A DNA stretch of 64,000 bases. It comes from Agrocybe praecox. Lineage: Eukaryota; Basidiomycota; Agaricomycetes; Agaricales; Agrocybaceae. Made by a program: the position numbers and the translations under genes. A model generated the notes under the pieces. It was not told where the DNA came from, ran no database searches, and saw only the letters and a program-made list of their open reading frames with translations. This document shows positions 8,370 through 62,939 of this stretch, in pieces. Each line of letters starts with the position of its first letter. Position 1 is the first letter of the stretch. The DNA lies in contig OZ024846.1 in NCBI GenBank assembly GCA_964017145.1, positions 3,472,001 through 3,536,000 of the forward strand. The letters are read 5' to 3'.

Positions 8370-11120
8370 AATAACGTGTTGATTTTTTTGACGTTTGAGG
8401 CAAGTGAAGTCTCACTTTCAGGTTTTTGTGATACTTCCATACTTCCATGACAGTTCAAATGAGACGATTTAGAATATTCTGATGGACCTATCTTTGGCAT
8501 GAGTCGCATCCAGGTAACCGTTGACCCCACGTTCACTCTCTTGCCTGAGCTTGCGCTGATCAGTCATGTAGATTGAATTAGACTTGCATGACTCTTCCAG
8601 AATAACACTCAGAGCTAGTCAAACTGGACTGGCCCAATATTTTCAAAATCATTGATAATTTCACATGTGGCCCAGAGTAATACACATGCATCATGCATCG
8701 ATTCATCTCTCAAGCTATTTGTGTAACAGTAGGATCCGCAAAGTTTCCGTCAATTTCCTACGAGCCAGTCCCTCAACCTGGGCTTATTCAAAGGTATAGT
8801 ATATTCATTGTTTTGGACATCAACTATATCAATTACCCTCATCTATGTCGCAGAAATAGGGTAGTTTATGGTACATTTTCCGTCGAGACTAATATCACCA
8901 GCAATATCCATGTGTTGTTAATTGGGTCTTCTGAATCGTCTTCCGAATGGCGTATCTAATCTTAACAAACTGAAATAGTTGCAGAATCTGAGATCTAAGT
9001 CTCGTGATTTGCTTGCGGGATCCATATATAAACATACCCATCTATTGCTGCGGTTGTCCAGCGACAGGTACAATGCCACGAAGCGAAAAAGCGGATGTTA
9101 ATCCAGTATGTGTTATTAATGTTCAGACGACCAACCAAACCACAATCGAAAAACCTTACGTTGTTCTAGAAACCGTCAAGCAGTCGCATCCCACCTGTAA
9201 CTCCTACGGAGTACCCTGGGCGAAAAAAGAAAGATAGTATAGTATTTGAGGTATGTTAACAGTCCGTTCATACGACTAGTCTTTGAGTTGAATATTTGAA
9301 TAATTATGAACCAACAAAGCAGAAAAATCGAACCAAAAAGAAGTCTAAGTTCATATCCAGCTCCCGCTATAACTTCCAATGCTCCTACTGATATATAAGC
9401 TACAGGAATGCTGCCATGTTTGGTTTCTTCTCGCGCGCTCGAAATGTTGCTGTTCATGGGGGTACTTTTAATATTCAACAAGGTACATTCCTTGTTAGCT
9501 CACATTTCGAACAATCACATTTATACCTTAACGTATATTAATTGGTAGTACACGACGCATCCAAAGAAGGGGAATCAGAATCAGAGAGCGCAGCTGTAAG
9601 TACATAGAAATTCGATTTCCTAATAGATAGATATTGACATTTCCAGTAGATACCGATATATCACCCTCCTGAGGCATCCCGTCCCTTACAACAAAAGTCC
9701 AGTGCTGTCGTCTACTGGGACAACCTTCTAATACATGGACGAGGCTCTCCAATTTGGCTCCCAGAGCCTAGTTCAAATAATGATTGGTTTCTTCGCCATG
9801 GTGTCTCTGTCGGTGACGTGGGACTATTACTACCGAAGGGAGGGTTTCATTTTCTGTTTAACATTTGCTATCCGAAGGGCCATCCGACAAACTTGGACCG
9901 TGTACCCGACAGTTTTACTCCTATTGAACACCCTATTAATCCCAACTTTATGACAAAGACCAATGAGCGGCCAGGATATAGCCTCACCAGCCGGTCGGTC
10001 GATAGGATTGGAATGGATCTCTGTTTTGAATCCCGTAGCAGCGAAGGAGCCATTCTCGCTCTTCCTTCGGGAATGCACTCAGAGGACCTTGTTTCCCCTC
10101 GAAGTCTCTGCGATCATGTAGCCAACCACTTAGTGAGCTGGTATAGATACGTTATCCATGAGTGCAGGTCTCCAGTTGATAATGGAGATATACGTGTTGT
10201 TACCGGCTTCTCAAAAACAAGCCAGTGGGGAGTCGCAGCCTTTTCTGAGTCTTCAAGGCCTATTCACGTCAGGCTACAACCTGACACCAGTGGGAATTAT
10301 TGTCATATTTGGGACTACTCTGGGTCTTGCGACGCACGATCTGGGCCACTGCTATCTTCAAGCAGCCAAGCATCAGCAACAGAGGCAAATCAATGCGTAT
10401 TTTTACGCACACTTAATGCAACATTCTCCGAGGACGCATGGACCAGCTTGAAGCAGAATATGTTCATTGAGCCCATCAGTAATAACCCATCAGACCTTGG
10501 ATTTCAAGAAAATATACCCATGATGAAGTCTGGGTCCCAAAATACAGGCGCATCCCAACAGCGTTTCTCGGGTCAAGGCCCAAACGATCAACAATGGGTC
10601 TATATGGTTCCGAACGTATCTTCAGCTATGGTCAGTTTTGATTTCCCATAAATTAGTCGAATTCTTTACTCAAATTACTTATAGATGTGCCATCCATCGA
10701 AATCACTGAATGATTTTCTATGGGACAATGTAAGTCAGATTTGTTCCACACCTTTTTGTATGACTATACAACCTAATCTTGCGTTGTATTTCTCAGGAAC
10801 GAACAAAACGTGTACCCAGTCAAGTTATAATTACCAGCGACAGTGACTGGATATCGATATTAAAGCCTGTATGTGGCATCTTGAGCCGTTGAAGTTTTCT
10901 AACGTGACCAACTACTGAGCGCTGATTTTGTACTTGCAGGATGATTTACACATCCCGAGCGCGGAGGAAATTTATACCAGATTAATGGATTCTGGTGCTG
11001 TAGTTTCATCAGATAAAGGTAGCTTACATTAAGCATTATAGTATTTGTATCAAAAAACTAAACACATTTTGCCGAACAGGATTTATGACCTTCCGTCGAC
11101 CTGATGTAGGTGTACCTGCA
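8370..11120. repeat. Segmental duplication shared with 28072-30880
   Basis: From ATAACGTGTTG (about 8382 and 28078) both copies run colinearly through the promoter, exons 1-8 and part of exon 9 of the shared-module genes. Exon 5 is exactly 981 nt in both. Similarity includes non-coding DNA, so this is a gene-scale duplication and not only domain homology. Copy 2 (19.3-21.3 kb) is more diverged and shows similarity mainly in exons. Confidence 0.85.
9025..9032 (+). promoter_or_regulatory. TATA box of the module-methyltransferase gene
   Basis: TATATAAA lies about 40 bp upstream of the proposed ATG at 9073. The duplicated gene has CATATAAG in the same place (about 28726-28733). The module-NACHT gene has TATATAA at 19220-19226, about 80 bp before its ATG. 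Confidence 0.5.
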
Positions 11121-12644
11121 TCAAACGTATGCAACTTCTTATGCGCCACTATGGCAGAATATGGAACCGTCCAGTAGCGAAAACACTTCGCCATTAAAAA
11201 ACAAGGATGAAAAGATGAATGGTACGCGATTTTCTTCCATTTGAGGGTTCTTTCACAACATGGTCAGCATACTTTACAATAGATCAGTTGAAGCGCACAG
11301 AAATATCAATGGAAGCGCTAGAAATTACAGAAGTATCGAAGAAACAACACACTGCTTACAGTGCATCTCAAAGAATCTCCATCCTGCTGAAGCTTAAGAC
11401 GTTATTCGACAGCAAAGGCACCGACTCGCACGACCAAGACGATAATGGCAACGAGTCGGGTTCAGACGATGGAGCTTCTATTTCCGAGGTCGAGTCCGTA
11501 GAATTCCCGTCACATTTCTCTGAGAGAAATGACCGCCTTTTCCATTCTGAACCAAGCGCTCCATACCCTCTCCCTGTCGATGGCAGAGAACAAAATGTAA
11601 AAAAATCATAATCCGAAATAAAACGATTTGCTAACTATTTCTCTTCCCTGTTTTCCAGCGGCAAGATCTGAACCATACAATTCTTCGCCGATGTTTGGGT
11701 CACCGCTACGTCGGCCCTGTAGCTGATGTCCTTCAAGTTCGTCCGGATTCCCCGCGTAAAATGGTCCTCGATATTTGCACGGGAAATGGAAAATGGTGCG
11801 TCACAATCTTGGTCAATATCTGTTATCCGATCGATGATCTTACTCTTATGTATGAACAGGCCCCTTGAAATGTCGGAAGAATTTCCCGGCGTTCATTTCA
11901 CCGCATTCGACATAGGTGATTCCCCGTCCTATGATTTGCGCGTCCCAGACTAACTAAATGCGCTGTCCAGTACCTCTCGCTACAAGATATCCACCAGACA
12001 ACGTACAGTTCGAAATAGATGACGTTAATACACCTTTCCGCTACAGAGATGGGACGTTTGATGTCGTGAACGCTCGCGACATTGCTATGGCCGTGAGCAA
12101 TATACCAGTGTCTCGCTAGTGTCGCTTCTCACAGAGTTACTCCCAGGTACGCGACTACGGCCAAGTTCTGAGAGAGGTGGCTCGAGTCCTGCGGCCTGGA
12201 GGTCTCTTTGTTTCCTGCGAATGGTCTCCCGGTCCACCAATCATTCCAAGGCTGCAGCAAGAGCAACAGGAACCAAGCACTTACATACCTACGATTGCTC
12301 GTCTTCACAGACTCGTCAACAGGGCTTTCTTTCGGACACAGAATTTAACGTCCCCTGCTGAGCATGTTCCACAATATCTGCACAACGCGGGTTCCTTTAC
12401 TGCAATAACCGCGGCTGAATACTACATTCCTATTGGCAGGCATCCGAGCCCTTCACTTCAAGATATGTCAATGTCGAACTTGGACGCAAACAAGATATAC
12501 GGCGATTCAGTTAAACCCTTACTCATGGATGCCGGGATGGTGGAGGACGATGTGGATCGGTTACTGGAGCACTATAATCAAGAACTTGACGATACTAGCG
12601 GCCTGTACAACGTCTTACACACCGTCCACGCCGTCAAAGTCTAG
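9073..12644 (+). CDS. Shared N-terminal module fused to a class I SAM-dependent methyltransferase
   Basis: I read 14 exons: 9073-9105, 9320-9348, 9406-9482, 9549-9595, 9650-10630, 10685-10729, 10797-10868, 10940-11018, 11080-11126, 11288-11596, 11659-11795, 11860-11915, 11971-12092, 12147-12644. They total 2532 nt (843 aa), with phase kept at every junction. Residues 1-25 are basic, then NVAVHGGTF, then a module with VYWDN, WLPEP, VGDVGLLLP and KTSQWGVAAFSE that I know only as an uncharacterised agaricomycete family. After a low-complexity acidic linker the C-terminus is a methyltransferase: VLDICTGNGKW (motif I, about 609-619), FDVVNARD, and LREVARVLRPGGLF (about 686-699). The substrate is unknown. 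The fusion depends on the intron 11127-11287. If that is wrong, a separate methyltransferase could start at the ATG at 11311. Confidence 0.7.
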
Positions 12645-12839
12645 GCTGAAATCAGCGAGATGTTGACCCACAATTACCCAATCTGCAGCAGGCGTTTGAA
12701 CAGCAGACATTTGTTTATATTAGAATCATACTTACCAAGAACAAACGACGATCGCATACGCTGTCCGATATGATTTAGCACAAGTCAGCAGGATCTGGCA
12801 TGTGTACGTACTCAGCTTTTCGCGTACTTAGCAGTAATT

Positions 12840-15530
12840 CTATCTCTCTTTGGGTGGAAGAAAGAAAGGAAGGGAGAAGGAGAAGAGGAGAGGTGCGCAC
12901 GAGAGAACAATTACTATTATAAATATGATTCAGTACCAAAGCGCTTGTCGTGGGTGAAAATACCGAGCTACTTAGGCGGAAGGACCAACGAGTTGGTGGG
13001 AAGTGGCGAGGTGATAAGTTTAAGGGGAACAGCGTTCAGAAAATCCTCTTTCAGGGAGGTAGATGTAGATCTGGGAGAGGGAAAGAGATGCGTAGAAAAA
13101 AAAAAAAGAGAAAAAGAAATCAAGAGACGGAGCGACTTTAACTGCCAAAAACCCGTGCCGTACTCCTCCAAAGCACGAGGTCAAACAAAACTTCAACGAC
13201 TGGCAGCAGATATTCTTAACCGACCACTGTCTTCCATCTTCGCGCCTGTCCATGCAAAACATGACTCCAATTGCAATTTAGAATACGACAGAGGATGTAC
13301 CAGCAACAGAAGGTAAGTTGGAACAACCTTTGCCCTGAAGAAGGTGCGTTGGCGGTTCACGGATAATTGATATTTGGAAGGTGTGGGGGAAGAGCGTTGA
13401 CGTACGTAGTGTTCACGCTCCTGGCGGTGATGATAGTGATTATCTGTTGATCGTAGTGTAAACGAGAGACGTAGGCCGGGAAGAGGAGATAGTGGGATAT
13501 ACCAAGGTACTCATCGGTGTTCGACGTGAATGTGAGGGCGGAGAAGGAGGTTCGAGAGTCGAACCTCGGAGAGGGCTATGGGAGGTGGTGATGGCGACGG
13601 CGACACAGAAATTAACACGACTATCAAGTATAGGTGGTGGCAGCGAGCAGGAGAAGGGAGACACTTGGGAGGGTTGTATTATTACGCAACTTGTTTTCGC
13701 CGGAGAGAAAGGAAGGAGGGTCGTGTGGTATCATTGATGCTTTCGATTGGTCGTGTTGGTAAACGTAGCGTTCAATTTGAATGTGCAAGCCTAAATATCC
13801 AACCTAGATGAGTTGGAAGGTTAATTTACAATGCACGAACGTCCTTACTCCCAACCAACCAACCAACCAACCCTCCCCTCCATCTAATCACTCTTCCCTC
13901 AAACCCGCTAAACACCCGCCTCTTTAAGCTTTAAGCCTTCCTTTCCAACGTCATTAAGCCACTTCAACTCATACCCCCAAGTGTTGGCCCAAATCGTCAC
14001 ATAAGCCGCCCTAAGCCAAAACACCGCCTATCTCCCCACCGCAATTGTCCAGTACGATGAACTTTTATCTGGTTCCCTTCCCTCGGCGGGCCTAAACAGC
14101 GGGACGACCAACAAAAAAAAAAGCCACAGCAGCGAGACTCGCGAGGGACGATAAGCGACAACACGGAGCATCGTGTCAACGTGAATAGGTCCCGGGGTAC
14201 TTGCGCTTGTGGACTTGGAGGGCCTGAGACGGGTCGTTTTCGACGTTGACACTCGGGCATGTGGGAGCGGAGAATTATGCATTAAGACGGGTTGATCAGG
14301 GGAGGGAGGAGCGAAACACGATTGAAAGTAATTAGTTAGATATTTTCTTGTTTCCAGTGTGGATCGTTGACATATGGAGACGTGGATGAGGCAGACGACG
14401 AGGAAACCCGGCCGTTCGTGATACCAGTCATCGCTTTTGTGTTTGCTTTCAAGGTGATGGCGGTTTTGGCGATAGGCAGGCAAGAGCAAGCGGCAGCCGC
14501 GAAGAGGAACGCGGGGGTGTCATAACGATTGACATACCGACATCGGCGTTGGCGTCCACACTCGATGTTTCGATAGTCAAGGTGAGTGTGAAAGCTTGAG
14601 CGCTGAGCAGTGCTAGTGAGGCCTTGAGGCCTTGAGGAGCGGATGGAGAACAAGGGCGGGGGACGAGAGATAATAATGGGGACACAAAGGTGATGGGACT
14701 ATCGAGGGCGAGTCGTGGATCCAGACGATGAGGGAGGACGCATGATTGTCAAACGGAGTGAATAGATGGGGTGACCCATGGCAGTCCCGATACGGTTTGA
14801 TACTTTGGTGGCATAACTTCTGCTGGGGAAGGGGAATAGCACTTCCTAACCTCTTTCGCCCATGCAACCCCAGCCCGACCTCTGCCCATGCACAACCGTC
14901 CATAGCAAATATTCACGGAATCGCGCCTATACAAGTAAAACATGATTCCAATTCAAATTAGGGTTATGACAGAGAACGTACCGGCAACAGAAGCGAGGTT
15001 CTCTGAGAGATACAACAGATTAACAATCGTGCTTGTCCCGCAGACTGTGCGTTGGAACTTGGAAGTTCGTCACTTAGGAGAGCACATAGTTGGTGTTCGA
15101 AAAGTCGATATGGGTCCAGATGACCTGTGTGCCCGGAGATTGTCAGTAAAGTTCTTGTAGAAGTGAGAAAGATGCAAGGGAGATGAAGTGAAGAAGAAAC
15201 ACCAACTCACATTACAGTGTTTGTCTGTGACTGACCGCCCGGAGCATTTCAGAAGGCTGGAAAATCGACCGCAGGCATACTAAGAGATATATCTGCTTCG
15301 CGTGGGAAGGCTATTAAAAGAGAGGCGAGCGCGTAGAAGTGAAAAAAAGAAAGAGTATTGAACACGACGGAAAATGTTGGGGACAAAACATCGGCTGGAC
15401 CTCTAACAACCAAATATAGACAAGCTCCTATGTATGGCTGATATTGTGCCGTCGCCGGTGCCGTATCGGTCTGGTCGGAGTTCGAGGGTCTAAATTTATC
15501 TTCGACCTCCTTTGTCGACTAACCGTTGTC
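12840..15530. repeat. Segmental repeat R1, copy 2
   Basis: Colinear with 1850-4745 and 25985-27950. It lacks the MITE and so shows the uninterrupted site near 15420. It passes directly into the second permease remnant, which shows that R1 and the permease-derived block were duplicated together. No conserved coding frame is seen. Confidence 0.7.
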
Positions 15531-15539
15531 AGGCCGTTG

Positions 15540-16640
15540 AAATTTTGAAATGTCATATATTCACACATCAGTGAGCTGCGAAAGTAGTATATGCGTTTAT
15601 AAGGGCACCAGAATGTTATAATTAATGTTTTTAGCAAAGTACAACCGTACGATCACACGACTTCGAGTCGAAAGGGAAGAACGTGTAAAATAAGCGATCG
15701 CGAAGAAGGTCGATGTTGGAGTTCAATTTCATGCAAATATATTTCCATAAAAGGAGCAACATTGTGTGGGGTTTGGACGAAAAGAGGGGGAATCCATGAA
15801 CATCAATCGCACTTACGAAAGGCAAACCGAACAGGGAGAGAGAGGAAGAAGGAAGACAGAAATGATTTTGAGGAAGAATGTACTCAAGTCGCGGAAACAA
15901 TAGGAGTAGGTGGGAAATATTTGGGCCCGGTCCTATCGTCCAGATAAACAGAAATGAATCCATGGAGCCGGGGTCGACAAGACGACGGAATGACACAAGT
16001 CTTTGATCAAGAGTATATGCGTATTAGCTATGCATATGGCGTTGTCGTGCCAGAATAAGGTCTAATCAACGAGAGATGACTATAACTGACTCACGATTTC
16101 TTTTTTCGATCCACCTCTCTTCGTACTCCATCCCAATAACCAACTTTCAACCTCTCTTCGCCAGCGTAAATATCCATCATCCCGACCATTGCAGCCTGAC
16201 CCAGAGACTGGAGCGAAAGAATGCTGGTATGAAGTTGGGTGACATGGTTGAAGGTATGCGGGACGACGTTGAAAATTGGGAATTTTAGCATTGTTAGATA
16301 CCACAAAGAAACAAGAAAAGGATGATCAAGGGGGGTGTAAGGAGAAGTCGATAACGAGGTGTGTTTATAGCGGGGTGGGAGTTAAATGACAGAGGGGGAG
16401 GCCGTCATATTATGTTTGGGCAGAAGGAAGCGGGGGATGCATGTCTTCCGAGTCCTGCGAGAAAAAGGAAGGAAGTAAAGGTGAACTCAGGATGCCGTAA
16501 AAAGACGCAAAAGGTGGACGTACAATATTGTCCCCAGTAACAGCCGCCTGCAGCTAAACCTCGCGCAACCTGACCGTGAAACTAGACCTGAAGTTTGAAG
16601 GCATGAAGCTTTGAAGCTTTGAGAAATAAGGATCTAGACA
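15540..16640 (-). pseudogene. Decayed permease-like locus, copy 2
   Basis: Colinear with 6270-7690. The block CAAAAGGTGGACGTACAATATTG with AGCTAAACCTCGCGCAACC (about 16508-16570) matches 7588-7650. The minus-strand frame at 16306-16091 retains a stretch (SLGQAAMVGMMDIYAGEERL) also readable in copy 1, but no full frame survives. The 3' side is truncated by the foldback element at 16652. Confidence 0.45.
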
Positions 16641-16703
16641 GCGGATATATATGAGTGTCCGTTTGTACATTTATGACTTTTTACATACATACTCGAAATT
16701 AAA

Positions 16704-16944
16704 TATTGTCGACCATTTAAGTAAGATTGTCGACCATTTGAGTGAGATTGTCGACCACTTATGACGGATTGTCGACCATCACAACAGATTGTCGACCATA
16801 AGATTAGATTGTCGACCATAAAATCTCATTGTCGACCATCAAAATCTTATTGTCGACCACCAAATTGCATTGTCGACCCCAAATTTTGTATTGTCGACCA
16901 CCTAAGTGAATTGTCGACCACTTGCATTAACGAATTGTCGACCA
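16704..16944 (+). repeat. Left-arm iteron array, 12 x ATTGTCGACCA
   Basis: Twelve copies of ATTGTCGACC(A) are spaced 20-24 bp apart and separated by variable AT-rich 9-13-mers. Each contains the palindrome GTCGAC. The regular pitch of about two helical turns is what would be expected of a transposase-binding array. The spacers differ, so this is not a simple tandem repeat. Confidence 0.85.
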
Positions 16945-17369
16945 CTCTCGCCTAACATGATTTTAGCATGCCGTTGCAGCCGGTCTCGCCTAATGCTAAT
17001 TTTGATGCGCATTTCGGCACTCCGGCGTTGATAATAATTTAAACTCAGCCTATGCGCGTCGCGCAAGACTCAAAATTATTATTTCTTGCTTTTTATATTT
17101 TACTTCTTACCTTATGAAATTTTTTTGCCACATACATACTAAATAACACAAGCTGTTTATACCTTAATTTGCATTGTACAGACTGAGACAGTTCGTGCAC
17201 CTGTCAAGTCTTGGTCAAGTCCCTACCATCAAGATTGCTGTGAGGTGAGCTGGTATCTACGTTAATAACAGCTTCGGACATTGGAATTATGTGAATTAAA
17301 CGTTATGACGCACGTCTCAGTGACGCGGCTGTCACACGACGTTACAACTGGCTGGCTGCAAGGACTTGA

Positions 17370-17775
17370 CTGGCTTTCAGCTCTCAGAAGGACCTGGTGT
17401 CGGTTTTTTTTGGCGGAATATCTTTATTGAATAGTCATATACATATGTACGGTGTCTCATGTAATACTGGTTCATTGGCGCAGCGCTACGAGTAGATATA
17501 GCAACGAGCGGCGAGGTGCGCGTCGGGCGCATATTGCATTCCCACGGTCCTTCTTCATACAGTAAGATGGCTTTCAACTCTCAGAAGGACCTGGCGTCGA
17601 TTTTTTTTGCCGGAATATCATTATTGCATAATAATATACATATGTACGGACTCTCATGTAATACTGGTCCATTGGCGAAGCGCTATGAGTAGATATAGGA
17701 ACGAGCGGCGATGTGCGCGTTGGGCGCATGCCGTATTCCCACGGTCCATCAGCGCGCAGGATGGGACTTGACAAG
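17370..17775. repeat. Tandem 205-bp duplication in the foldback centre
   Basis: Two copies (about 17370-17570 and 17572-17775) share CTCTCAGAAGGACCTGG, ATACATATGTACGG and ATGAGTAGATATAG. The two short minus-strand frames are translations of the same repeat and probably not genes. Confidence 0.75.
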
Positions 17776-18032
17776 CGCACGAACTGTTTGGACAATGTAA
17801 ATTAAGCTAAAATTTTGGAAACATTTTGTATTAGCTAATATGTACACGGAAAATTTGTTTTATAAGATAAGAAATGAAATATAAAGTGGAATAAATAATA
17901 ATTCTGAATCTCGCGCGACGCGCATAGGCTGAGTTTAAATTATTATCAACGCCGGACTGCCGAAATGCGCATCAAAATTAGCATTAGGCGAGACCGGCTG
18001 CAACGGCATGCTAAAATCATGTTAGGCGAGAG

Positions 18033-18272
18033 TGGTCGACAATTCGTTAATGCAAGTGGTCGACAATTCACTTAGGTGGTCGACAATACAAAATTTGGGG
18101 TCGACAATGCAATTTGGTGGTCGACAATAAGATTTTGATGGTCGACAATGAGATTTTATGGTCGACAATCTAATCTTATGGTCGACAATCTGTTGTGATG
18201 GTCGACAATCCGTCATAAGTGGTCGACAATCTCACTCAAATGGTCGACAATCTTACTTAAATGGTCGACAAT
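18033..18272 (-). repeat. Right-arm iteron array, inverted copy
   Basis: Reverse complement of the left array, with the same 12 cores and the same spacers in mirrored order. This shows that the arms have been kept nearly identical. Confidence 0.85.
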
Positions 18273-18327
18273 ATTTAATTTCGAGTATGTATGTAAAAAA
18301 TCATAAATGTACAAACGGACACTCATA

Positions 18328-19215
18328 GATATAGAGGTCTGCGAGGAAAAATATAATTGAACTTTGCGGTTAAGGCTTGCATAAGACCAACATAAGACTT
18401 TGTGTCAGAATTTGGGGTTTACGCTCTCGGAGCGTTCGGCTGTTGCCGCAGATCATGGGATCATGCGACGGCCCATTAGATTAGAATCGTCGCGTACACA
18501 TGTTTCTTTCCTTTACCCGCAAAGTCCTGCTTAACATCAGCCTGCTCGTGTTAGGTCTCATAGCCAACTGAGGATGTTCGGAAGAAACCTTAACCGGTTT
18601 TCTGACACTTTGATATCCAACATGCACCTGAGCAAGCAGGCCGGATGTATGACGAGGTGTATTACTACTTAATGCCCTAGCCACCAGCGCACTGCCCCTT
18701 TGAAGTTTCTTTGAAGGCTGCAATGTTTAGACAGACACCAGTATGAAAGGTTTAATGTCTGTATCAAAAATAGTAGAATGATGTGATCCGGTGACAAAAT
18801 TAGAAACATGAAAAAGGGACGTTTATGGTTGAGTTTGTTCAAAATCAAAATTCGTACAGACTCTTTTTTCTACTCATGTACATGTGCTGCAGTACTGCAG
18901 TGCGCACGCAAACTAATGTATAACAGTGATTGTCAAGATGTAGCGATGTATCCAAAGGTGATAAAAATTGAAGTTCTCGTTATTATTACATGCCTATTTT
19001 TGACTTTTCATTTACATCCCTAAGATTGCGTTCATGGGGAACCGGGACCCTAGAACAGATATTCTCTGATAGCCTAGCATAGCATTGAGCTATTGATATG
19101 TCACGGTCAATAAACACAGTCAGACCTGTGCGTGAGTGCAATGTCTTCCACATAGCATCGTACTTGATACCTGACATTGAAGCAGTGCATCAATAAGGTG
19201 GCGGTTGAAAGTCCA
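18328..19215. other. Unassigned DNA upstream of the module-NACHT gene
   Basis: Only short open frames (about 60-80 codons) on either strand, without recognisable motifs or splice structure. I see no gene. Confidence 0.4.
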
Positions 19216-19307
19216 TTGCTATATAACCGACCTATGCCAGGTTCCACGATTTTCTATCTTATCTTTCTCACATACATGCCTTACACCGACGCCTAAATCA
19301 AGGACAA

Positions 19308-22300
19308 ATGACAATGACTCGTGAACGCAAACGCACAGAAGCAAGTGTATGTACCATTGTCAATCAGTTAGTAACCTGTAACACTGATTGTTGATCTCTA
19401 TGTGGGCCCAGAATCGGCATAAATCGCCAAGCCATGGGAACCCCTCTAACGTTGATGCCGCTGCATCCCCTAAGCGAGCAAGAAAATATTCAATATTATT
19501 TCCCGTTTGTTACAAGTTTATCACTTTCATAATCTCTATTTTTACGTATCAAACATAGAGAAATAAGGCCGGAAAAGCGAGGTCTCGGGGTCTACTGAAC
19601 ATGAATCAAAGAACGTTGCGGTCAGTCCGGTCGAACAGGGACAAAAAACATGTGTAAATACAGCTTTCCTCAACGTTACACTTTTTCTGATGCTGTATTG
19701 GCTACAGGACTACTGTAAAAAGTGACTTCTTCTCTAGTGCACAAAATGTTACTGTGCATGGGGGTATATTTACCATTCAACAAGGTATGTACTTCATTTA
19801 GCTCATTTTAGAGAGTTAGATCTGTATTAACGTAAATTGTTTACAGGCCGTATCCCAAATGAATCTGAAAGCGTATCGGTAAGTATTTGAGTTGAAGCAC
19901 GCAGGAAAAATCCTAATTGACGATTTTCACAATCGCAGTCCCAAGACGATCGTTTCGAAGATTTTGTCCCCACTCAGTATAGATCCAGCGCTGCGGTGTA
20001 TTGGGATAATCTTCTTATGCTCGGACGGGGTGCTCCAATCTGGCTTCCAGAACCTGCTTCAAACAATGATTGGTTTAATCGCAATGGCGCCTCTATTGGC
20101 GACGTTGGACTCCTATTACCAACCGGAGGTTTTCTATTTTTGTTCAACATTTGTTATCCAAGGACCCATCCTATAAACTTGGATCGCGTACCTGACGGAT
20201 TTGTTCCTCTTGGAAATCCAATTAACCCTGCTCTTATAACAAAGACAAGTGAGCGGTCGGGATATTGCCTCCCTAGCCGTTCAGTCGACAAGATTATAGG
20301 AGCACATATGCATTTCCAATCCTTTGGCGAGCAAGGTGCCGTTCTCGCTCTCCCATCTGGAATGCAATCGGAGGATTTATTTTCCACCAAGAGTTTCTGT
20401 GAATATATTGCTGTGCACATAGTCGAATGGTATCGATACGTTATCCACGATCTCGGGTGCCAAATCGCAAATGGGGATGTGCGTGTTGTCACTGGAGTCT
20501 CCAAAACCAGCCAGTGGGGAGTAGCTGCCTTCTCCGAATCTTCGAGGCCCATTGAATTCAGGCTACAGCCCGATAATTATGGAGAATATTCTCATGTTTG
20601 GGATTATTCTGGATCTTGCGATGCTCGATCCGGGCCGCAGTTATCCTCAGAGACCCCAAATGCAACATTGCCTAGTAACCAATGTGTCCTTCTACGCACG
20701 CTCAATGCGACGTTCTCTCCACAGACATGGGCAAACTTGAACAACGACAACTTCGAGACAGGGAGCAATATTCTGCAGGACATCGCGTTTCCGGAAAATA
20801 TACCCATAATGAAAAATGGGACACAGAATGCTGGCTTCTTACAGCAACACCTGCCAGGGCAAAGTTTCAAGGGTCCTGCTCACCACTCATCTTACGCAAT
20901 TTCCAATGTATCATCAGCCATGGTGAGTACATAAATTTAACGTGACTTCCTTTCCGAGTCTCACGTTCTGATCTAATTAATAATGCTCTCTCCTTTCGTC
21001 TAGATGTGTCATCCATCAAAATCACTGAATGATTTTATATGGGAGAATGTGGGTGACGTTGAACAAATAACACCGTTCCTTTATACGTATTTCGATTAAT
21101 TTATTGGATTTTCTAGGTGCAGGGGAAACACGTGCTTACTGGAGTAATTATAACTAGTGACAGCGACTGGATATCGGCGTTAAGACCTGTATGCTAATCT
21201 GCCTGACAATGTCGATGCGACTCAACACTGACTGTTTTATCATTAGACTGATTTATGCATTCCGACTGCAGAGGAAATGTATAACAGGTTAATAAAATCT
21301 GGGGCTTTTATTGCCTCATATGGAGGTAGGACGATACAATAGCGTTTAGATTCAATTCACTTATTCTGTCATCTATATTAGGATATATATCCATATCCTC
21401 TCCAACTGTAAGTTTATTCTATAAATATTCGACATAATCGAGTCCTGATCCAGTTAAAATCTGGCTTTAAAGACAGATGCAGGTATCAGAGAAAACATTT
21501 TCTCGTCAGATAGCTGTCATCACAAAGACCACAACAGTAAGCACCATAGCACTCCCGGTCAGGAGACTTGGCTTATAATGTGGTTGCAATATTTCCTAGG
21601 TCCGTTCAGTCGCTTACTGGCGCAGGTGTCACCAACTGCCTTCCTTCAGTGCCGCGATCCCTATCACATGGAGGCCCCGAAGTGTCATCCAGGAACGCGG
21701 ACCACTGTTCTGAATAAGCTGATAGAATGGGCATCCGCGTCCACTGAAAGGAAGCAGAGTGAACGACATCTCATGTGGCTTTCTGGTGACGCAGGAGCAG
21801 GGAAAACTGCCATTGCTCACACGGTCTCTCGCTGTCTAATGGAAAGTCGGGGGCTAACTGGAGTTTTTATGTCCTCTCGGCTTGATCCAACACGGAATAG
21901 TACGGCTTCTCTTGCTGCAACTATAGCGTACCAGCTTTCGACGAGGAGTCCCATGCTTTGCAAATCAATAGCGAGCGCCATCGACAACGATCGACACATA
22001 TTCACGAGGTCCCTGACGACTCAATTTTTGTCCTTAATTGTCAACCCATTGCACGATTTCGCTACCACACGCCCGCTGAAATCACCCGCCCTGATAGTCA
22101 TAGATGGCTTGGATGAATTTATAGATCAAGGGCCGCTTCCTGAGCTTGTCAGCTTACTTTCTGCTTCAGTAAATCAACTTTACGTGGAAGCCCGAATTTT
22201 GATACTCAGTCGATCCAATTCGCCAATTGCAGCTACGTTAACGACACTCACTGCAAGAAATGATGTTTCACAGCTACCACTAGAGGGATTACCTTCCACG

Positions 22301-23962
22301 GAAGACATACGCCACTATCTATCCGATAAACTTGCAAAGCTCTCACACAAGCATACGTCGAGCACAAAAACCATCACACCCTGGCCATCAAATGATACAT
22401 TGGACATGTTGATAGAAAAATCATCTGGTCAATTCATCTACGCTGAAACCGTGATCAACTTTCTACAAACGCAATATTCTTTCCGTAAACCTTATCGGCA
22501 ACATCTCCAAGAGATACTCTCGATTCAATCTCCGAAGCAGCATGGTCCATTCACGGAGCTCGATGCCTTATACTCTTACATTTTATCGGGCGCGGAAGAC
22601 ATAGAAACTGTGCTCAGTACAGTGCGCTTTATTTTTCATCACCCTGACTTTTCCTTCAACCAGATTTCGCACGTCTTAAGACTTGACGTGAAGGTCATCG
22701 AAAAGGCTCTTCCTCACTTAGGCGGGCTCGTGACATTAAAATCGTCCGAGAAAGCAAGAGAAATACAGTTTCACTCCTCTCTTGCAGAGTATTTACTGGA
22801 CCCAGCACGATCCCATAATCTCTTCGTAGAGCCAGCACTGGATCAAACAAGATACTTAACACGATTTATCCATGGCTTATCATGTAAGCATACATTATAT
22901 GGCTGGATAGAGCCTTCTCGTCTGACATCTGAATGTTATAGATGTGACAAGAACTGCATGTCTACCCCCTGATGCAAGTTTACACCTACGAATATCTCGT
23001 ATACTCTTCAAGCCACAAAAGACACATATAACCTCCGAGCTTCTGAGTGCCGTAGGGGAATTCCCAATCTCGGCGTTTTGTGGACTTTTGGTTACCAAGT
23101 CACAGGGCGCTAGCTCAACGCAGAGCTTTTCCTATATACTCTGCAATTTCTTTAGCTGGATGAAGTCTCTGGTATGTGACGGTATCTACTATTTTCAATC
23201 ACTTCAGTAACTCATACGGCTTTGTAGGGAAAAGAGCCAGGATTCGACGATATCTATAATCATCATATACAATCCCTTCTCGCATTTGTCATATCCGAGT
23301 TTAACAGCCACTACCTCGAGGACCGTCAGTTCAATTTCTTATTCTGTGTACGATATCTTGGCATAGACTGCCAGTGTATTGACACGGAAGGCATATTAAG
23401 CACGGATATGCAATTGATACTTTCTTCAGGGCTCTCAGATAGTGTCTACTCAGACGTCCGTTATCTGGTCCCCAGAGAAATTGACAATGGTCGTTGTATG
23501 GAAATTTATGCCCGAGCAGCAGTGTATTGTCTAAGCCGCTTGTGCGATCATCTAGCCTACAGACAACATTCTGCGGATCAAGACCCACAATACACGGCCA
23601 GGAGGAGGGACAAGCCATGGAAATGGCTCCATACAATGCACCTCGTATCATATAAACCACACACCAGCAATACATTCAAAACGTCAGTCCGTGCAACCAG
23701 CATTGATAACAGGGCACTAGCAACCGCAACCTCAACCGCATCCGACATCCATCAAGAAAAACTGCCAGCAATTTATCTCTGGCTTCTGCGGTATCTGACA
23801 TTTTTCCTCCCCAGGTCTTCACGGTATGGACCCCTAATCTATGCTTGCCGCAAGAAAACATTTGCGCCAATGTCTCGCATTTTCCCTGGACGTAGTAAGC
23901 GCGCACGGCGAGAGATGTCGCGTTACATCTTACGCGTTTGCGGGCCAGCAATAGCATTATAA
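19308..23962 (+). CDS. Shared N-terminal module fused to a NACHT ATPase (NLR-like protein)
   Basis: I read 12 exons: 19308-19346, 19559-19653, 19708-19784, 19847-19878, 19939-20922, 21004-21048, 21117-21188, 21247-21325, 21382-21407, 21473-22883, 22942-23171, 23228-23962. They total 3825 nt (1274 aa), in phase throughout. The N-terminus is basic, then NVTVHGGIF, then the module with VYWDN, WLPEP, IGDVGLLLP and KTSQWGVAAFSE. The last module exons run in frame into the NACHT exon. Walker A is GDAGAGKT (about 588-595) and Walker B is LIVIDGLDEF (about 690-699), followed by FIYAETVINF and a helical C-terminal half without obvious repeats. In STAND proteins this layout puts the module in the N-terminal effector position. 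The NACHT exon also has an ATG at 21578, so an independent start cannot be excluded. Confidence 0.75.
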
Positions 23963-24430
23963 ACGGACACTATATATTTCTCAGTGGCAATTCAATGTAT
24001 TAAAATTAAATAAACAAGTACGTTACCAAAAGTGAGTGTCATAGCCGATTCTCAAGCTATCCGACGCTATACAGAAAATCAAAATGTGGAAAATGGAACA
24101 CAAGAGGTGTATTAGAAAATGATCCATTATCAAGATGAAAATCTGCAGACCAATAAGCTCAGAGGTTCAGACGTTTACGATTTAACGTGCAACGTTTCTT
24201 GAGATAAAGTTTTTCTCTCCATTGGATTCGTGAAAAATGTTTCATTGGCGAATATTTCATCCATGGTTCACGTAAGGTCGTAGTCGTGCATCGTCATGTT
24301 AAACATTGGTCACCTCAAGTCAACAGTCTTCGTAGTTACGTTTGTAAAGTGGGGGGAAGGAGGCGTACTTAGAGAATGCAGCGTGGAGAGCGTCCAGCAA
24401 TGATCTTGGAGGAAGGAAAGTAGTGGACAG
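23963..24430. other. Intergenic DNA, no gene seen
   Basis: AT-rich, containing the presumed 3' end of the NACHT transcript (AATAAA-like AAATTAAATAAAC near 24003). No coding frame is supported. Confidence 0.4.
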
Positions 24431-24439
24431 CGACTAGCT

Positions 24440-25640
24440 CAACGTTGCGAACCTGAATCTGGAATTTTTCGAATGCCGAAGAAGCGGCACCGGTAATGGT
24501 ATTCCCCGAAAATCCGATAGCGTCTCATGAAAACACACGCACATACAAAGCGCATAGCCTTGGGCGCTTCGCCAGAAACATATAAGTTGCATGTAAGTAT
24601 GCACATACATAAAACAAAAAGAACGTTCAACAATAAACCGACTTCGAAAGCGAAGGACATGCACAAGAAGTCGACAGAAAGTGAAATAGAATGAAATTTT
24701 CGAAGAACGAAACAACGAGGTGAGATTGGACAGAGGGGGGGAAATACATAAAAATCAAGAGCAGATGTGAGATATATATAGAAACCCATCGTTCCGTCAA
24801 CGAGACACGATCGTGGAGAAAGGAGAAGGAAACATCTCGATACTTTCTTTTGAGGACGAATATACTAAAGTCGCGGAAATGATAGCGAAGAGTAGGCAAC
24901 ACTGGGGATTGCACATGGATAGTAACGAACCCATAAACCCGCGATTGAGGGAGATGAAGGAAGGGGACAAATATTGTTGAAGAACACATATATATGTATA
25001 GCAGCCTCGATATGGCTTTGTCGTACTAGGGTAATGTGAGATGAACAGTGCGTTACGGCGAGCGCGAAGCGGGATACACAGGCGACGAATCCAATAATCA
25101 GGGTCGTGGATAATGCCGACACACATGGCGGTGTGTTTGATGCCCTGTGAGGATAGAATGAGAGGAAAAATCAGGTGGGTTGAGATGAGGTTATCAACTG
25201 ACTCACGATTCGTTCTTTCGATCCACCTCTCTAAGCTCGTCGCCAGCGTGAAGCATCACTAGTAGCCGTCATCCTGGCCCTTGCAACCTAACCCAGAGAA
25301 GAAAGGCCATAAACAAGAGTGGATTATTCAAGGACAGTGGGCAATAGAAGAAGTCGATAACGAAGATGTGTGCAACACCGGGTGGGAGTTAAGTATTTTA
25401 ATGACAAAGAGAAGATGAGTTGAGTGTGAGGCCAAAGAGATGGGTCGTGAGAGGATAGTTGGGCATGGCAAGGAAGCGGGGCATTCACGATGTCTGGCGG
25501 TTTCCGAGTCCTGAGAGAAAAGTGAAGGAGGTAAAGATGAGAATACGGGAAAAGAAGCAAAAGGGGGGCGTACAATATCGGCCCCATGACAGCCAGCAGC
25601 TAAACCTCGCTCAATCCAGCAAATCTAGATAGAGCTGCCC
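24440..25640 (-). pseudogene. Decayed permease-like locus, copy 3
   Basis: Matches copies 1, 2 and 4. GGCCCCATGACAGCCAGCAGCTAAACCTCGC occupies about 25580-25611. On the minus strand the frames are disrupted but retain PPGVAHIFVIDFFYCPLSLNN (about 25405-25340), resembling the PPGDAY.F...SYPL segment of APC permeases, and a hydrophobic segment IIGFVACVSRFALAVTHC (about 25104-25051) also present in copy 4. No intact gene. Confidence 0.45.
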
Positions 25641-25984
25641 TCAAGCGTTGACGCTGAGCGTTCAAACGCGGTCCACATAGTGGGGAACGAGGAAAGGTAG
25701 GTTGTGTTCATCGCCGGGATGCGAGGGCAATGATACCACGAAACTTCGAAGTTGAGTTGACCAGTCGAGTACAAGGCCAACAAGAGGAGTTGATAGAAGG
25801 GATCCAAAGCGCTGACGTTTTAAACCCCACACTGTTGGAGTCTACGAAAAAGGTTGGTGTCATGGTATTAATTGCGTTCGAAATGTTCCCTATCAAACAA
25901 TGAGTCGGGTTCTTCATGTAGGATGTAGGAGATCACATACATCGTGCTTGAAAAGTTTAAGATTTCAATTTAAATTCAAGAAAT

Positions 25985-27950
25985 GAAAAAGATTTACCAG
26001 CAAGATAAGCGAAAATTCGCTAACAGCTACAACACATTGACAACTACGATGACCATGCGGATAGAGCATCGGGGTTGGTGGTGGCAACGAGCAGGAGAAG
26101 GGAGACACTTGGAGGGTTGTATTATTACGCAACTTGTTGCCGCCGGGAAGGAAGGGAGGAGGCCATGATATAATTGATGCTTTTAATAGATCGTGTTGGT
26201 AAACGTAGCGTTCAATTTGAATGTGCAAGCCCAAATATCCAACCTAGATGAGTTGAAAAATCAATTTACAATGGACGAACGTCCCAACTCCCAACCATCC
26301 AACCATCCCACCCTCCATCCGATCACTCTTCCTCCCAAAAACCTCCTGCACACCCGCCTCCTCAAGCCTCCCTTTCCAACATCACTAACCCTCTTCAACT
26401 CATTACCCCAATCGTTGGCCCAAATCACCCTATAAAGTTATAAACCGCCCTAAGCGAAAACACCGCCTATTTCCCCACCGCAATTTTTCAGTACGATGAC
26501 CTTCTATGTAGTTCCCTTTACTCGGCGGGCCTCAACAGCGGGACGATGAACGAAAACCACATTCCTCGCACAAAGGTTGCCGCAGCAGCGAGACTCGAGA
26601 GGGACGATAAGCGTCTACCCGGAGCGTCGTGTCAACGTGATTAGCTCCGGAGGTACTTGCGCTTGTGGACTTGGGAGGGACGGGTCGTTTTTGACGTTGA
26701 GACTCGAGCCTGTGGGAGCGGAGCATTATGCCTAGGTGATCAGGGGATGGAGGAGTAAAATACGGATTGCAAGAAAGTCATATAGATATTTTCTTCTTCT
26801 TTCGAGTGTGGATCGTTGACGTATGGAGACGTGGGTGAGGCAGACGACGAGGAAACCCGGCCGTTCGTGATACCAGTCATCGCGTTTGTCTTTGCTTTCA
26901 GGGTGATGGCGGTTTCGGCGAGAGGCAGGCTAGAGCAAGCGGCAGCCGAGAAGAGGAACGTGGGGGTGTCATTCCAATTGACAAACCGACATCGGCGTTG
27001 GCGTCCACACCCGATGTTTCGATATTCAAGATGACAGGGAAAGCTTGAGCGATGAGCAGTGCTAGTGAGGAGCGGATGGAGAATAAGGGCCAGGGACGAG
27101 ATGTGGTGATGGGGACGAAGGTAATACAATTATCGAGGGCGGATCCAGACGATGAGGGAGGCCCGGAGGACGCACGATTGCCAAACGGAGGGAATAGATG
27201 GGGTGGCAGTACTTAGTACTCAGCCCCGATACAATTTGGTATTTTTGCGGCATAACTGCTGCTGGGGAAGGGGAATAGCACTTCCTAACCTCTTTCGCCC
27301 ATGCACAACCATCCACAGCAAATATTCGCGGAATCGCTCCTATACAAGTAAAAAAGTGACTCCTATTCAAATTGGGGATATGGGAAAAGGACGTACCGGC
27401 AACAGAAGCGAGGTTCCATGAGAAGTACGACAGATTAACAACCGTGCTTGTCCTGCAGACAGTGCGTCGGAACTTGGAGGTTCGTCACTTCGGAGAGCGC
27501 ATAGTTGGTGTTCGAAAGGTCGTTGTGTCGTCAGATGACCGGTGTACCCGGAGCTTGTCGCCAGGTTCTTGTAAAAGCGATAAATCTGCAAGGGAGATGA
27601 AGGGATGAAAGTATGTGGAAGGGAAAGAAGAAACATTACAGTGTTTGTCTGTCACTGACCGCCCGGAGCACTTCGGAAGTCTGGAAAATCGACCGCAGGC
27701 ATACTACTAAGAAATATATCGGCTTCGCGTTGGAAGACTATTAAAAGAGAGCTGAGCGCGTAGAAGTGAATAAGAGAAAGAGTATTGAACATGAAGGAAA
27801 GTGTTGGGGACAAAACATCGGCTAGACCTCTAACAACCAAATATAGACAAGCTCCTATGTATGGCCGATATTGTGCCGTCGCCGGTGCCGTATCGGTCTT
27901 GTCGGAGTTCGAGGTGCTAAATTTATCTTCGACCTCCTTTGTCAACCGCT
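25985..27950. repeat. Segmental repeat R1, copy 3
   Basis: Begins in the middle of the unit (homologous from about 3040 of copy 1) and runs to about 27950. It then joins the block upstream of the third module gene, skipping the permease part. It contains the uninterrupted MITE site near 27850. Confidence 0.7.
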
Positions 27951-28071
27951 TCGGCTAAAACGATTAGAGCGCTTTCATTCTTGAGTGCGATTCAAGGTTG
28001 AAGTGTTATATATTCACACGTTAGTGAGGTGCGAAAGTAGTATCTGCCTTTATAAAAGCACCAGAATATTA

Positions 28072-30880
28072 TAATTATAACGTGTTGCTTTTTTTGATGT
28101 TTGAGGCAAGTGAAGTCTTACTTTCAGATTTTTGCGATACTTGCGTACTTCCATGACAGTTCAAATAAAACGATTTAGAATGGTATTCTGATGGACCTAT
28201 CTTTGGCATGGGTCACATCCAGGTAAGCTTTGACCCTGCGTTCACTTTCTTGCCTGAGCTTGCGCTGATCGGTCATGTGAATTGAGTTAGACTTGCATGA
28301 CGCTGCCAGCATAACACTCCGAGCTAGTCAGACTGGATTGGCCCAACATTTTCAAAATCATTGATAATTTCACATGCGGCCGACTAATACACATGCATCG
28401 ATTCATCTGTCAAGCTATTTGTGTAGGATCCGCATAGTTTCCTTCAATTTCTCACAAGCCAGTCCCTCAACCTGAGCGTATTCAAAGTATAGGATATTCA
28501 TTGTTCTGGACACCAACTATATCAATTACCCTCATCTATGTCGCAGAAATCGACTACACAAGGGTAGTATATGGTCCATTTTTCCTCGAGACTAATATCA
28601 CCAGGAATATCTATGTGTTGTTAATTATGTCTTCTAAATTGTTTTCGGAATGGCTTATCTAATCTTAACAAACCGAAATAGTTGCCGAATGTGAGATCTA
28701 AGCCTTGTGATTTGCTTGCGGGATCCATATAAGCATACCCATCCTTTACTGCGGTTGTCCAGCGACAGGTACAATGCCACGAAGCGAAAAAGCGGATGTT
28801 AATCCAGTATGTGTTATTAATGTTCAGACGACCAACCAAACCACAATCGAAAACCCTGACGTTGTTCTAGGAACCGTCAAGCAGTCACATCCCATCTGTA
28901 ACTGCTACCAAGAGCCCTGGACAAAAAGAAGAAGATAGTACCAAATCTGCGGTATGTTAACAGTCCGTTCATACGACCCTGGTCTTTGTGTTGAATATTT
29001 GGATAATTATGAACCGAAAAAGCAGAAAAAGCGAGCCAAAGAGGAGTCTAAGTTCATATTCAGCTCACTCTATACCTTCCAATGCTCCTACTGATATATA
29101 AGCTATAGGAATCCTCCCACCGTTGGTCTCTTCTCGGGCGCTCGAAATGTTGCTTTTCATGGAAGTAGTGTTACTATTCATGGGAGTAGTTTTCCCAATC
29201 TACAGGGTATGTTCCTTGCTGGCTCACATCTCGAACAATCACATTTGTACCTGAACGTATATTAATTGGTAGGACACGGCACATCTGAGAAAAGGGAATC
29301 GGAATCAGAGAGCGCAGCTGTAAGCACATAAAAATCCGATTTCCTAATAGATAGATATTGACATTTCCCGTAGATACCGATATATAAGTCTCCTGAAGCA
29401 TCCCGGCCTTTACAGCAAAGACCGAGTGCTGTCATCTACTGGGATAACCTTCTAATACATGGACGAGGCTCTCCAATTTGGCTCCCAGAGCCCAGCTCAG
29501 AAAACGCTTGGTTTCTTTGCCATGGTGTCTCTGTCGGTGACGTGGGACTATTACTACCGACAGGAGGGTTCCTTTTTCTGTTTAACATTTATTATCCGGC
29601 GGACCATGAGATAAACGTGGATCGCGTACCCGACGGTTTTATTCCTCTGGAGCACTCGATTAATCATACCTTTATGACAAAGACTAATGAGCAGCCAGGA
29701 TATAGGCTCACTGGCGGATCGGCCTATAAGGATGGAAAGGGTCTCCGTTTCAAATCCAACGGTAGCGGCGAAGGAGCCATTCTCGTTCTTCCTTCAGGAA
29801 TGCACTCAGAGGATCTCTTTGCCACTCAACCTCTCTACGACCACATAGCCATCCACATAGTGAGCTGGTATCGGTACATTATCCATGAGGGCGGGTGTCC
29901 AATTGATAATGGAGACATACGTGTCGTTACCGGCTTCTCCAAAACAAGCCAGTGGGGAGTCGCAGCCTTTTCGGAGTCTTCAGAGCCTATTAGCATCGAG
30001 CTACAACCTGATATCAGTGGGGATTATTCTCATGTTTGGGAGTACTCTGGGTCTTGCGACGCTCGATCAGGGCCACCGCTATCTTCAGCAAGCCAAGGAT
30101 CAAGCACAAGGACAAATCAATGCGTATTTTTACGCACACTTAATGCAACATTCTCAGAGGACACTTGGAACAGCTTAAAGCAGAATATGTTTAAAGACAT
30201 TGATAATAACCCGTCAGACCTTGAATTTCCAGAAAATACACGCCTGATGAAGTCCGGGTCTCGAAATACAGGTGCATCCCAGCAGCGTGTCTCGGGTCAA
30301 GGCCCAAAGCATCAACAATGGGTCTACATGGTTCCGAACGTGTCTTCAGCTATGGTCACTATTGATTGCCCATGAATTATTTGAATTATTTGCTCAAATT
30401 ACTTATAGATGTGCCATCCGTCGAAATCACTGAATGATTTTCTATGGGACAATGTAAGTCAGATTTGATGCACACCTTTTTGTATGGGCATACGACCTAA
30501 TCGTGCGTTATATTTCGCAGGAACGAACAAAACGTGTACCTACTCAAGTTATAATCACCAGCGATAGCGACTGGATATCGATATTAAAGCCTGTATGTGG
30601 AACCTTGAGCCGTTGAAGTTATCTAACGTGATCAAATACTGAGCACTGATTTGCTACTTGCAGGAGGATTTACGTATCCCGAGCGCGGAGGAAATTTATA
30701 ACAGATTAATGGATTCTGGTGCTGTTGTTTCATCAGATAAAGGTAGCTTATGTCAATGACTATAGTATTTATATCCAAAAATAAACAAATTTTGCCACGC
30801 AGGATATTTGACCTTCCATCGACCTGATGTAGGGCTAGACATTACAGAAATATCGAAGACACAAAGCACTACTTACAGTG
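28072..30880. repeat. Segmental duplication shared with 8370-11120
   Basis: Partner of the block at 8370-11120, covering the upstream region, TATA-like CATATAAG, and exons 1-9 of the module gene. The two copies diverge after the shared TACAGTGCATC block (about 30873 here, about 11355 in copy 1), exactly where the C-terminal domains change. Confidence 0.85.
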
Positions 30881-31280
30881 CATCCCAAAAAATCCCCAGA
30901 AATGAGCATCACAGTAAGTCATGATAATATTAAAAACAAGCATTTCTGACTATAGCCTTGCTAAAATGTGCTTATCAATGCGTTCAGCCTTTCGATACCG
31001 TCTCCACCAATTTTCTCTAAGCTTAGGGGGGCAACTGAAGTATGTAACTGTCAAGCCAACAGCCCATGTGGGAGATTGGATAGTTATAGTATATGGTATG
31101 TTTGTACTGTTTGTCCTAGGTCAGATTTCTATGCCATCTAACATTGTTACAGTAGGGTCCACAAACATCCTTTGGGGAACTGGCAGGGCAAAGAAAGAAG
31201 AAGATGCGAAGGAAATAGCAGCAGAGCAAGCGTTCAATCTAATGTGCAGAGAACACCCCGATCATGCTCCCTTATTTTAA
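28774..31280 (+). CDS. Shared N-terminal module fused to a double-stranded RNA-binding domain
   Basis: I read 11 exons: 28774-28806, 29023-29051, 29109-29206, 29273-29319, 29374-30354, 30409-30453, 30521-30592, 30664-30742, 30803-30913, 30988-31095, 31153-31280. They total 1731 nt (576 aa), with all phases consistent. Exon 5 is 981 nt, the same as in the methyltransferase fusion. The module keeps NVAFHGSS, VIYWDN, WLPEP, VGDVGLLLP and KTSQWGVAAFSE. The last two exons encode a DRBM-like fold: RLHQFSLSLGGQLKYV, then WIVIVYV, then the typical C-terminal KKEEDAKEIAAEQAFNLM (AK..AA..A). This suggests binding of structured RNA. The domain is single and C-terminal, ending CREHPDHAPLF. The insert after IVIVY is removed by a GTATGT..CAG intron. 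Function is inferred. Confidence 0.7.
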
Positions 31281-49839: not shown

Positions 49840-49983
49840 GGGTCAACGCCCACTGTTTGTTACTATCTGCACCTGGTTTGTATATGTTTTGTCTGATATG
49901 TTCACATTTACTTAGAATGCGGCGCAACAGGTAATTATATAAATACATATGGTATCAGATGCCGAACCTCTCTAACATTCACC

Positions 49984-56530: not shown

Positions 56531-56809
56531 TGTTAAAATGACCGGGTCTTCGAGGTCACTCGGGTTGTAGTAGGGACCCTCGCAATCAAGCGAGGTTTGC
56601 ATTTCACGTAGGTACACTATAAATACAAAATGTGTAGCTACAATAGCCTACAAAGTAATAAGGAGAAAATAAAATAAACAAGGGATAGTGGCATAAAATA
56701 TGCCAAATGTCAATATAAGAATGAAATGCAGATTATCTCGAGGAGATAATCTGCGGCTATCAAGTGACCACTTCGTGGTGCGCTTGTATTTACCCCGATT
56801 ATTCCAACA
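56531..56809. mobile_element. Solo LTR 2 (279 bp)
   Basis: Starts TGTTAAAATG and ends TTCCAACA, flanked by CTGGG (56526-56530 and 56810-56814). Excision of the LTR and one CTGGG rejoins FSILHW and GGIRSYVESVW in frame. The sequence differs from LTR 1, so a second retroelement family is involved. Confidence 0.88.
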
Positions 56810-62860: not shown

Positions 62861-62939
62861 GCGGGCAGGGGTAGGTAGTGGGAGGATATTGGGCAGGGTA
62901 GGGGGGCTTGGGTGGGTGCTTGGGTGGGGTAATAGGGTG

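Follow-up and report, generated by a model that had tools for sequence, protein, structure and literature searches.

The window analysed here is a 64,000-nucleotide stretch of the Agrocybe praecox genome (GenBank assembly GCA_964017145.1, contig OZ024846.1, positions 3,472,001 to 3,536,000 of the forward strand; G000:C7:3472001-3536000 in our numbering), which carries a tandem array of genes built on one N-terminal module. Within this duplicated array a single module has been joined in frame to different C-terminal domains, here called tails. Recombination at the DNA level between the array and stand-alone genes of this genome has swapped the tails, and several tails came in at a single entry site. 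Three genes, all on the plus strand, combine a leader and a GG.F motif with the module: gene 1 (9073..12644; 16 exons, 886 residues) ends in an S-adenosylmethionine (SAM) methyltransferase, gene 2 (19308..23962; 13 exons, 1281 residues) in a NACHT ATPase and gene 3 (28774..31280; 12 exons, 596 residues), in which the motif is degenerate, in a double-stranded RNA-binding domain (dsRBD). A further module–NACHT copy, c4, begins ∼3.3 kb ahead of the window and contributes its 3′ end (1..1420, plus strand; splice model partial), and c4 and genes 1–3 form the tandem array on one strand. Gene 4 (36104..39014, plus strand; 3′ splice model partial), at 4.8 kb from gene 3, consists of a Ser-rich leader, a GG.F motif SDINVTGGTFTQN and a NACHT domain, with no module.

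Genes 1–3 were spliced by hand, and each model closes with a single terminal stop, with introns that are all GT–AG and 52–126 nt long. The three co-oriented genes announced in a preliminary description of this DNA are therefore upheld at the same coordinates; its product sizes of 843, 1274 and 576 residues are replaced by those above. The main module exon is 981, 984 and 981 nt in genes 1, 2 and 3 and the next three exons are 45, 72 and 79 nt throughout, just as had been claimed. The sizes given for the shared exons 1–8 stand but their numbering does not: with the leader divided into exons 1–3 and the HGG motif exon as exon 4, the large exon is exon 6 and not exon 5. The motif exon (9406..9482 in gene 1, plus strand; RARNVAVHGGTFNIQQ in the motif alignment) is 77 nt long and in identical phase in the three genes. 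A basic leader and an HGG motif had been attributed to all three; both are found in genes 1 and 2, whose leaders are Lys/Arg-rich, but the leader of gene 3 is less basic and its motif is degenerate (FHGSSVTIHG), followed by a weak donor, gtagtt, that was chosen because it keeps the frame. A deletion of ∼200 bp in the tail region of gene 3 has removed a donor, a 64-nt exon and the intron that follows it, and leaves the frame intact. The common module amounts to ∼490 residues, and a 2.3 kb alignment of copies 1 and 3 shows 86% identity. Homology between c4, gene 1 and gene 3 begins upstream of the ATG and stops at one point, gene 1 position 11381, within the module tail. A 574 bp inverted repeat (91%; 16645-17210 / 17765-18332) lies between genes 1 and 2 and is possibly part of the instability of the array.

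The in-frame run of the module into the three domains is borne out by Pfam matches to PF13847, NPHP3_N/NACHT and dsrm (the last just under the cut-off). The cassette interpretation draws its support from stand-alone relatives of two tails, L057 and L062, from a chimeric intron in gene 3 and from the c4-like blocks on both sides of the methyltransferase in gene 1. The spliced tail of gene 1 matches PF13847 at 1.3e-12. It lies in an island (11382..12858, plus strand) that is absent from c4 and is ∼93% identical to L057 (from 11409) and L056 (from 11380), in both cases to 12845. The block that follows (12859..13135, plus strand) is a 77% match to the block behind c4 (1893-2191), leaving the island flanked on both sides by sequence of the neighbouring module–NACHT type. 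The last methyltransferase exon occurs three times in the genome, in gene 1, L056 and L057. L057 (contig C2) is a stand-alone methyltransferase gene that starts from an ATG of its own, with AIPIGPSQQ as the next residues, and its identity with gene 1 and L056 extends from ∼30 nt into its coding sequence to beyond the stop. L056 (C7:2.30 Mb) retains ∼210 bp of module tail. Between this and its methyltransferase, inspection by eye shows an intron like that of c4 and the codons that open the c4 NACHT exon. This arrangement suggests that a NACHT tail was replaced by the methyltransferase in an ancestor, the intron later having been lost from gene 1. Introns are kept in all three methyltransferase copies, so the transfer took place at the DNA level and not by retrotransposition.

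The dsRBD exons of gene 3 (30988..31280, plus strand) match dsrm at 2.2e-4 on the spliced tail, scoring 22.2 bits where the cut-off is 23.0. They are preceded by a phase-1 intron (30914..30987, plus strand) that is chimeric in local alignments: its 5′ 23 nt are of the module type and resemble the start of the c4 intron (20/23 nt), and its 3′ part resembles the intron of L062 (contig C3), an apparent small stand-alone gene of the form ATGTCAA/intron/dsRBD with an inferred short start exon. None of 500 letter shuffles reached the score of either alignment; for the swapped comparisons the counts were 4/500 (the 30-nt 5′ piece extends into the dsRBD-type part) and 26/500. RNA folding of this intron was ordinary. 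Recombination thus joined the dsRBD tail at a point inside an intron, and L057 and L062 are likely, judging from these alignments, to be the parent genes of the two joins. A second module–dsRBD gene lies on contig C39; its dsRBD is 67% identical to that of gene 3, and its module resembles that of c4 (91%) more than that of gene 3 (87%). This region (G000:C39:22500-29000) is collinear with ∼30.8-37.5 kb of the window, with interruptions and at 79-94% identity by piece. Possibly this is the gene 3 locus in a second haplotype, in which case the module–dsRBD fusion would here represent one locus rather than two. A dsRBD tail also occurs in a Schizophyllum homologue, and with a close stand-alone relative still present here we infer at least two origins. 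Further dsRBD relatives lie at C9:3155368, C10:150286 and C10:352722, some with stop codons within the match.

The tails might also be separate neighbouring genes, joined by modelling error or by polycistronic read-through of the kind known in mushrooms (PMC4503453); the joins do rest on predicted models, as do the database proteins discussed below, and the Zn_clus domain at C4:660825 may belong to a neighbour with its own ATG. However, the tails of genes 1 and 3 do not contain the start of their stand-alone relatives, and the first methionines come late: the methyltransferase part of gene 1 runs from residue 553 with its first Met at residue 651, three ahead of DICTGNGKW, and the sole Met in the gene 3 tail is residue 585 of 596. 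A separate, complete tail product is therefore unlikely. With the chimeric intron pointing the same way, this explanation was set aside as the main view and we regard it as barely credible.

NACHT, in c4 and gene 4, shares an entry site with other domains. NPHP3_N was detected in gene 2 (9.3e-24, with NACHT at 6.3e-9), in c4 (1.2e-21) and in gene 4 (1e-21), giving all three the NACHT ATPase of fungal NOD-like receptors (NLRs); no family of any kind, WD40, TPR and ankyrin repeats included, was matched in the one C-terminal open reading frame (ORF) searched for each. The intron by which NACHT enters is in phase 1 in gene 4 (36363-36424) and, by eye, in c4, and this one phase-1 entry is common to NACHT (c4, gene 4), the dsRBD and the L056 methyltransferase, the c4 and L056 junctions being read by eye. 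Gene 2 is older, and its NACHT enters in phase 0. No donor of the NACHT tails was found, the best own-genome match of the gene 2 NACHT exon being 38% identical among the 85 listed.

We also considered that the fusions could be by-products of an unstable tandem array, mostly drifting and in part non-functional. The ratio of nonsynonymous to synonymous substitution rates (dN/dS) of the dsRBD is 1.1-1.3 (NG86), not below 1; a first estimate of 3.1 vanished under NG86 with Fisher tests and was dropped. Exon 6 of gene 3 gives 0.68-0.79 in three of four pairs (P 0.02-0.12), its motif is degenerate, only a module tail is left in L056 and there is a stop codon inside the module match at two of 33 genomic loci. 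All of this would suit drift, but the methyltransferase does not: its coding exons show no indel over 1007 nt, and its dN/dS is 0.20-0.29 by NG86 (P<0.001 in all three pairs) and 0.31-0.40 by YN00. Retention of bHLH and NACHT fusions in Agrocybe proteins (P0007, P0001) and of a dsRBD tail in Schizophyllum also speaks against it, and drift as the general explanation is quite improbable. Exon 6 of gene 1 compared with four close copies gave NG86 values of 0.41-0.55 (P<0.004 each), including 0.53 (P 0.0004) for copies 1 and 3, the comparison that the preliminary description had proposed; with the five close copies compared in all ten combinations the range was 0.41-0.79 (YN00, 0.50-0.96). Gaps within exons 6-8 in the DNA alignment of these copies are, by eye, 3 or 6 nt; indel blocks from a protein-guided alignment, which can only be multiples of 3, were left out of account. 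In a simple neutral simulation (four copies against copy 1), exon 6 stayed free of stops at the divergence seen with a probability of 0.0055-0.015 per copy. Purifying selection acts on exon 6 of copy 1, and the shared structure of the copies is not due to chance.

The trio of fusions is present as first reported, but it is not the whole set: in the 59.2 Mb genome (347 contigs) the module gave 52 exon matches grouped into 33 loci, partial ones included. Tails were read in the available DNA (1.5 kb downstream for most loci) and named by Pfam. NACHT tails were supported for gene 2, c4 and C1:4600523, a thioredoxin tail for C1:4215827 (4.6e-10, after joining two pieces by eye), a bHLH tail for C8:599422 (1.1e-6, from unspliced sequence) and a putatively linked Zn_clus for C4:660825 (9.4e-8). 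Below the cut-off, and not counted as established, were a C2H2 tail at C7:1314744 (best 0.0015), a Peptidase_C14 tail at C4:3495257 (0.026) and a GTPase-like tail at C5:550587 (nothing above the cut-off); the tail at C1:4589361 matched no Pfam family. The proposed search for fusion partners, run on protein databases, returned at least 93 homologues, all predicted gene models; this is a lower bound, as the final search scored only the 7989 candidates sharing most words. Named sources include Agrocybe, Galerina, Psilocybe, Gymnopilus, Phlegmacium, Mycena and Amanita, which we take to be Agaricomycetes and mostly Agaricales.

A local profile found the module in all 93 homologues and at least 89 residues behind it in 26, for 12 of which Pfam named the tail: NACHT (P0001), bHLH (P0007), DUF6699 (P0017, P0072), DUF6593 (P0032), HSF (P0051; HSF scoring 8.5e-17 among the homologues), API5 (P0078), dsrm (P0079; 3e-4, just under the cut-off), F-box and WD40 (P0080), a fused Peptidase_C14 caspase (P0081), Zn_clus (P0091) and HET with TPR (P0093). 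No Pfam tail was found at 0.001 in P0003, P0004, P0005, P0006, P0028, P0030, P0031, P0037, P0039 or P0074. HSF in P0052 is a precomputed label only, the database labels of P0028 (GATA-type) and P0054 (nitroreductase) have no Pfam backing at 0.001, and P0041 (eIF4E, Sua5, LYR) was not counted as it is possibly a merged annotation. Zn_clus lies N-terminal of the module in P0090, as does NACHT in P0035, which is outside the 26. The 14 of the 26 without a Pfam-named tail are thus the ten listed above, P0052, P0041, P0090 and P0040. Two of the tails are shared between our loci and Agrocybe proteins: the bHLH of C8:599422 with P0007 (33% over 138 residues) and the NACHT of c4 with P0001 (40% over 285 residues); the NACHT of gene 4 matches P0001 better than that of c4 does (44% over 290 residues).

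The main module exon (9650..10630 in gene 1, plus strand; 981 nt) matched no Pfam family in any of the three copies. The AlphaFold model of the gene 1 exon has a mean pLDDT of 81.7 and reaches 90 or more in 206 of its 327 residues, and structure searches with models of two members that are 34% identical were led without exception by gasdermin entries (the first 18 and 16 VIA rows and the first 13 and 10 Foldseek ranks). Below the gasdermin block, the matches of model 1 were mostly to gasdermin or MACPF/CDC structures. The module is thus predicted to fold like the N-domain of gasdermin. Library searches gave no recognizable sequence similarity to known gasdermins (whether these libraries detect known fungal gasdermins was not checked), and for this reason the module is termed gasdermin-like and not classed as a gasdermin. 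A search of a viral structure library gave nothing at E 0.001 (best E 0.065). The likeness might reflect no more than a common β-rich arrangement in an unrelated fungal domain, but with gasdermin entries leading for both members we consider this improbable. A gasdermin/MACPF-like fold might also serve without pore function, as a nuclear scaffold or ligand-binding domain in proteins that regulate genes through a basic leader and DNA- or RNA-binding tails. The bHLH, HSF, Zn_clus and (just under the cut-off) dsrm tails and the Lys/Arg-rich leaders of genes 1 and 2 would fit such a role; the NACHT, caspase and HET/TPR tails and a motif resembling that of NACHT genes point instead to immunity, and transcription-factor domains also serve as baits in plant immune receptors, as related in PMC5819176. 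A purely regulatory role is on balance rather unlikely.

The motif near the N-terminus of the module genes reads F..A.N(hydrophobic).(hydrophobic).GG.F, and a similar pattern occurs in the first exon of NACHT genes with short N-termini, gene 4 included. A query from one such NACHT gene found 18 places in the genome, and in every case a NACHT exon follows on that strand at a distance of 201-228 nt (at least 88 NACHT places exist); 14 of the 18 lie within G000:C3:502797-780112. The module-type motif as query found five places, all of them module genes. Single-sequence queries of the two types do not retrieve each other, so that the link between them rests on the alignment pattern and on gene 4.

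Taken together, these features are best read as a membrane-pore executioner of hyphal cell death, in which the module of predicted gasdermin fold is controlled by an exchangeable C-terminal sensor, regulator or bait; we give this proposal a chance just short of even. The tail would hold the module inactive until an event at the tail releases or clusters it; this could be binding of a ligand, RNA or effector, oligomerization of NACHT, or cleavage by a caspase in the same protein. The module would then insert into the membrane, and its pores would kill the compartment, shielding the colony from viruses, parasites or foreign hyphae. By analogy with amyloid-signalling NLRs and HET-S, motif–motif contact may allow NACHT receptors, gene 4 among them, to recruit module proteins. 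A fuller version is possible but doubtful: pyroptosis on one polypeptide in Agaricomycetes, in which recombination through the phase-1 intron renews a set of exchangeable sensors (NACHT, dsRBD, caspase, HET/TPR, baits) and NACHT receptors provide an additional trigger in trans by way of an amyloid-like N-terminal motif.

In pyroptosis the inflammasome and gasdermin bring together NACHT, caspase and gasdermin parts. All three kinds of part are present here, the gasdermin as a predicted fold, but unlike in that system (PMC12881547) the module shares a single polypeptide with NACHT or with caspase. The fungal gasdermins RCD-1 and HET-Q1 are described in PMC12881547 and PMC10197012 as separate genes, ∼80% beside protease genes, and mostly protease-released, whereas the module here is fused to many tails, bears an N-terminal motif and gave no sequence match to them. 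Plant NLRs with integrated domains, such as the grass MIC1 clade (PMC5819176), and putative decoys in Sordariales NLRs (PMC12258605) resemble the array in that unrelated domains have repeatedly been captured close to one site, at the DNA level and with introns kept; here too likely parental genes (L057, L062) are found in the genome and joins recur at one site. They differ in that the constant part here is a predicted executioner and NACHT is not obligatory.

In the NWD2/HET-S system an NLR signals to its effector through an amyloid motif. As in that type of signalling (PMC4344463, PMC9815663), a similar short motif is carried by receptor genes of the NACHT type and by a candidate executioner, adjacent in the array; unlike there, the motif is N-terminal and not C-terminal on the effector, the effector is gasdermin-like and not HeLo, and the motif is a putative amyloid former. 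Agaricomycete NLRs are reported in PMC9815663 to have amyloid-like N-termini and few effector partners, and the one-polypeptide reading, if true, would supply the effector side reported to be scarce for basidiomycete NLR amyloid signalling. A gasdermin-fold domain with an amyloid-type motif and NACHT, caspase, HET–TPR or RNA-binding tails would then join the gasdermin and missing-effector questions. No gasdermin–NACHT fusion or description of the module was met in the literature searched, whose coverage was partial, and this is not a claim of absence. The array captures domain acquisition soon after the event, with stand-alone relatives present and junctions readable, one of them intronic, and from it the gain of new tails by immune-type genes is directly measurable.

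Elsewhere in the window, an inverted repeat of 555 bp (97.7%; 42744-43296 / 45195-45749) resembles a recent mobile element, or the ends of one. Two long ORFs (374 and 906 residues) at 55417-59414, the shorter containing GTLHCH, presumably resemble a Helitron-type replication protein. A 337-residue ORF at 49897-50907 is F-box-like by eye, and the minus strand at 62652-63441 codes for tandem PIP(M/V)PTQ-like repeats.

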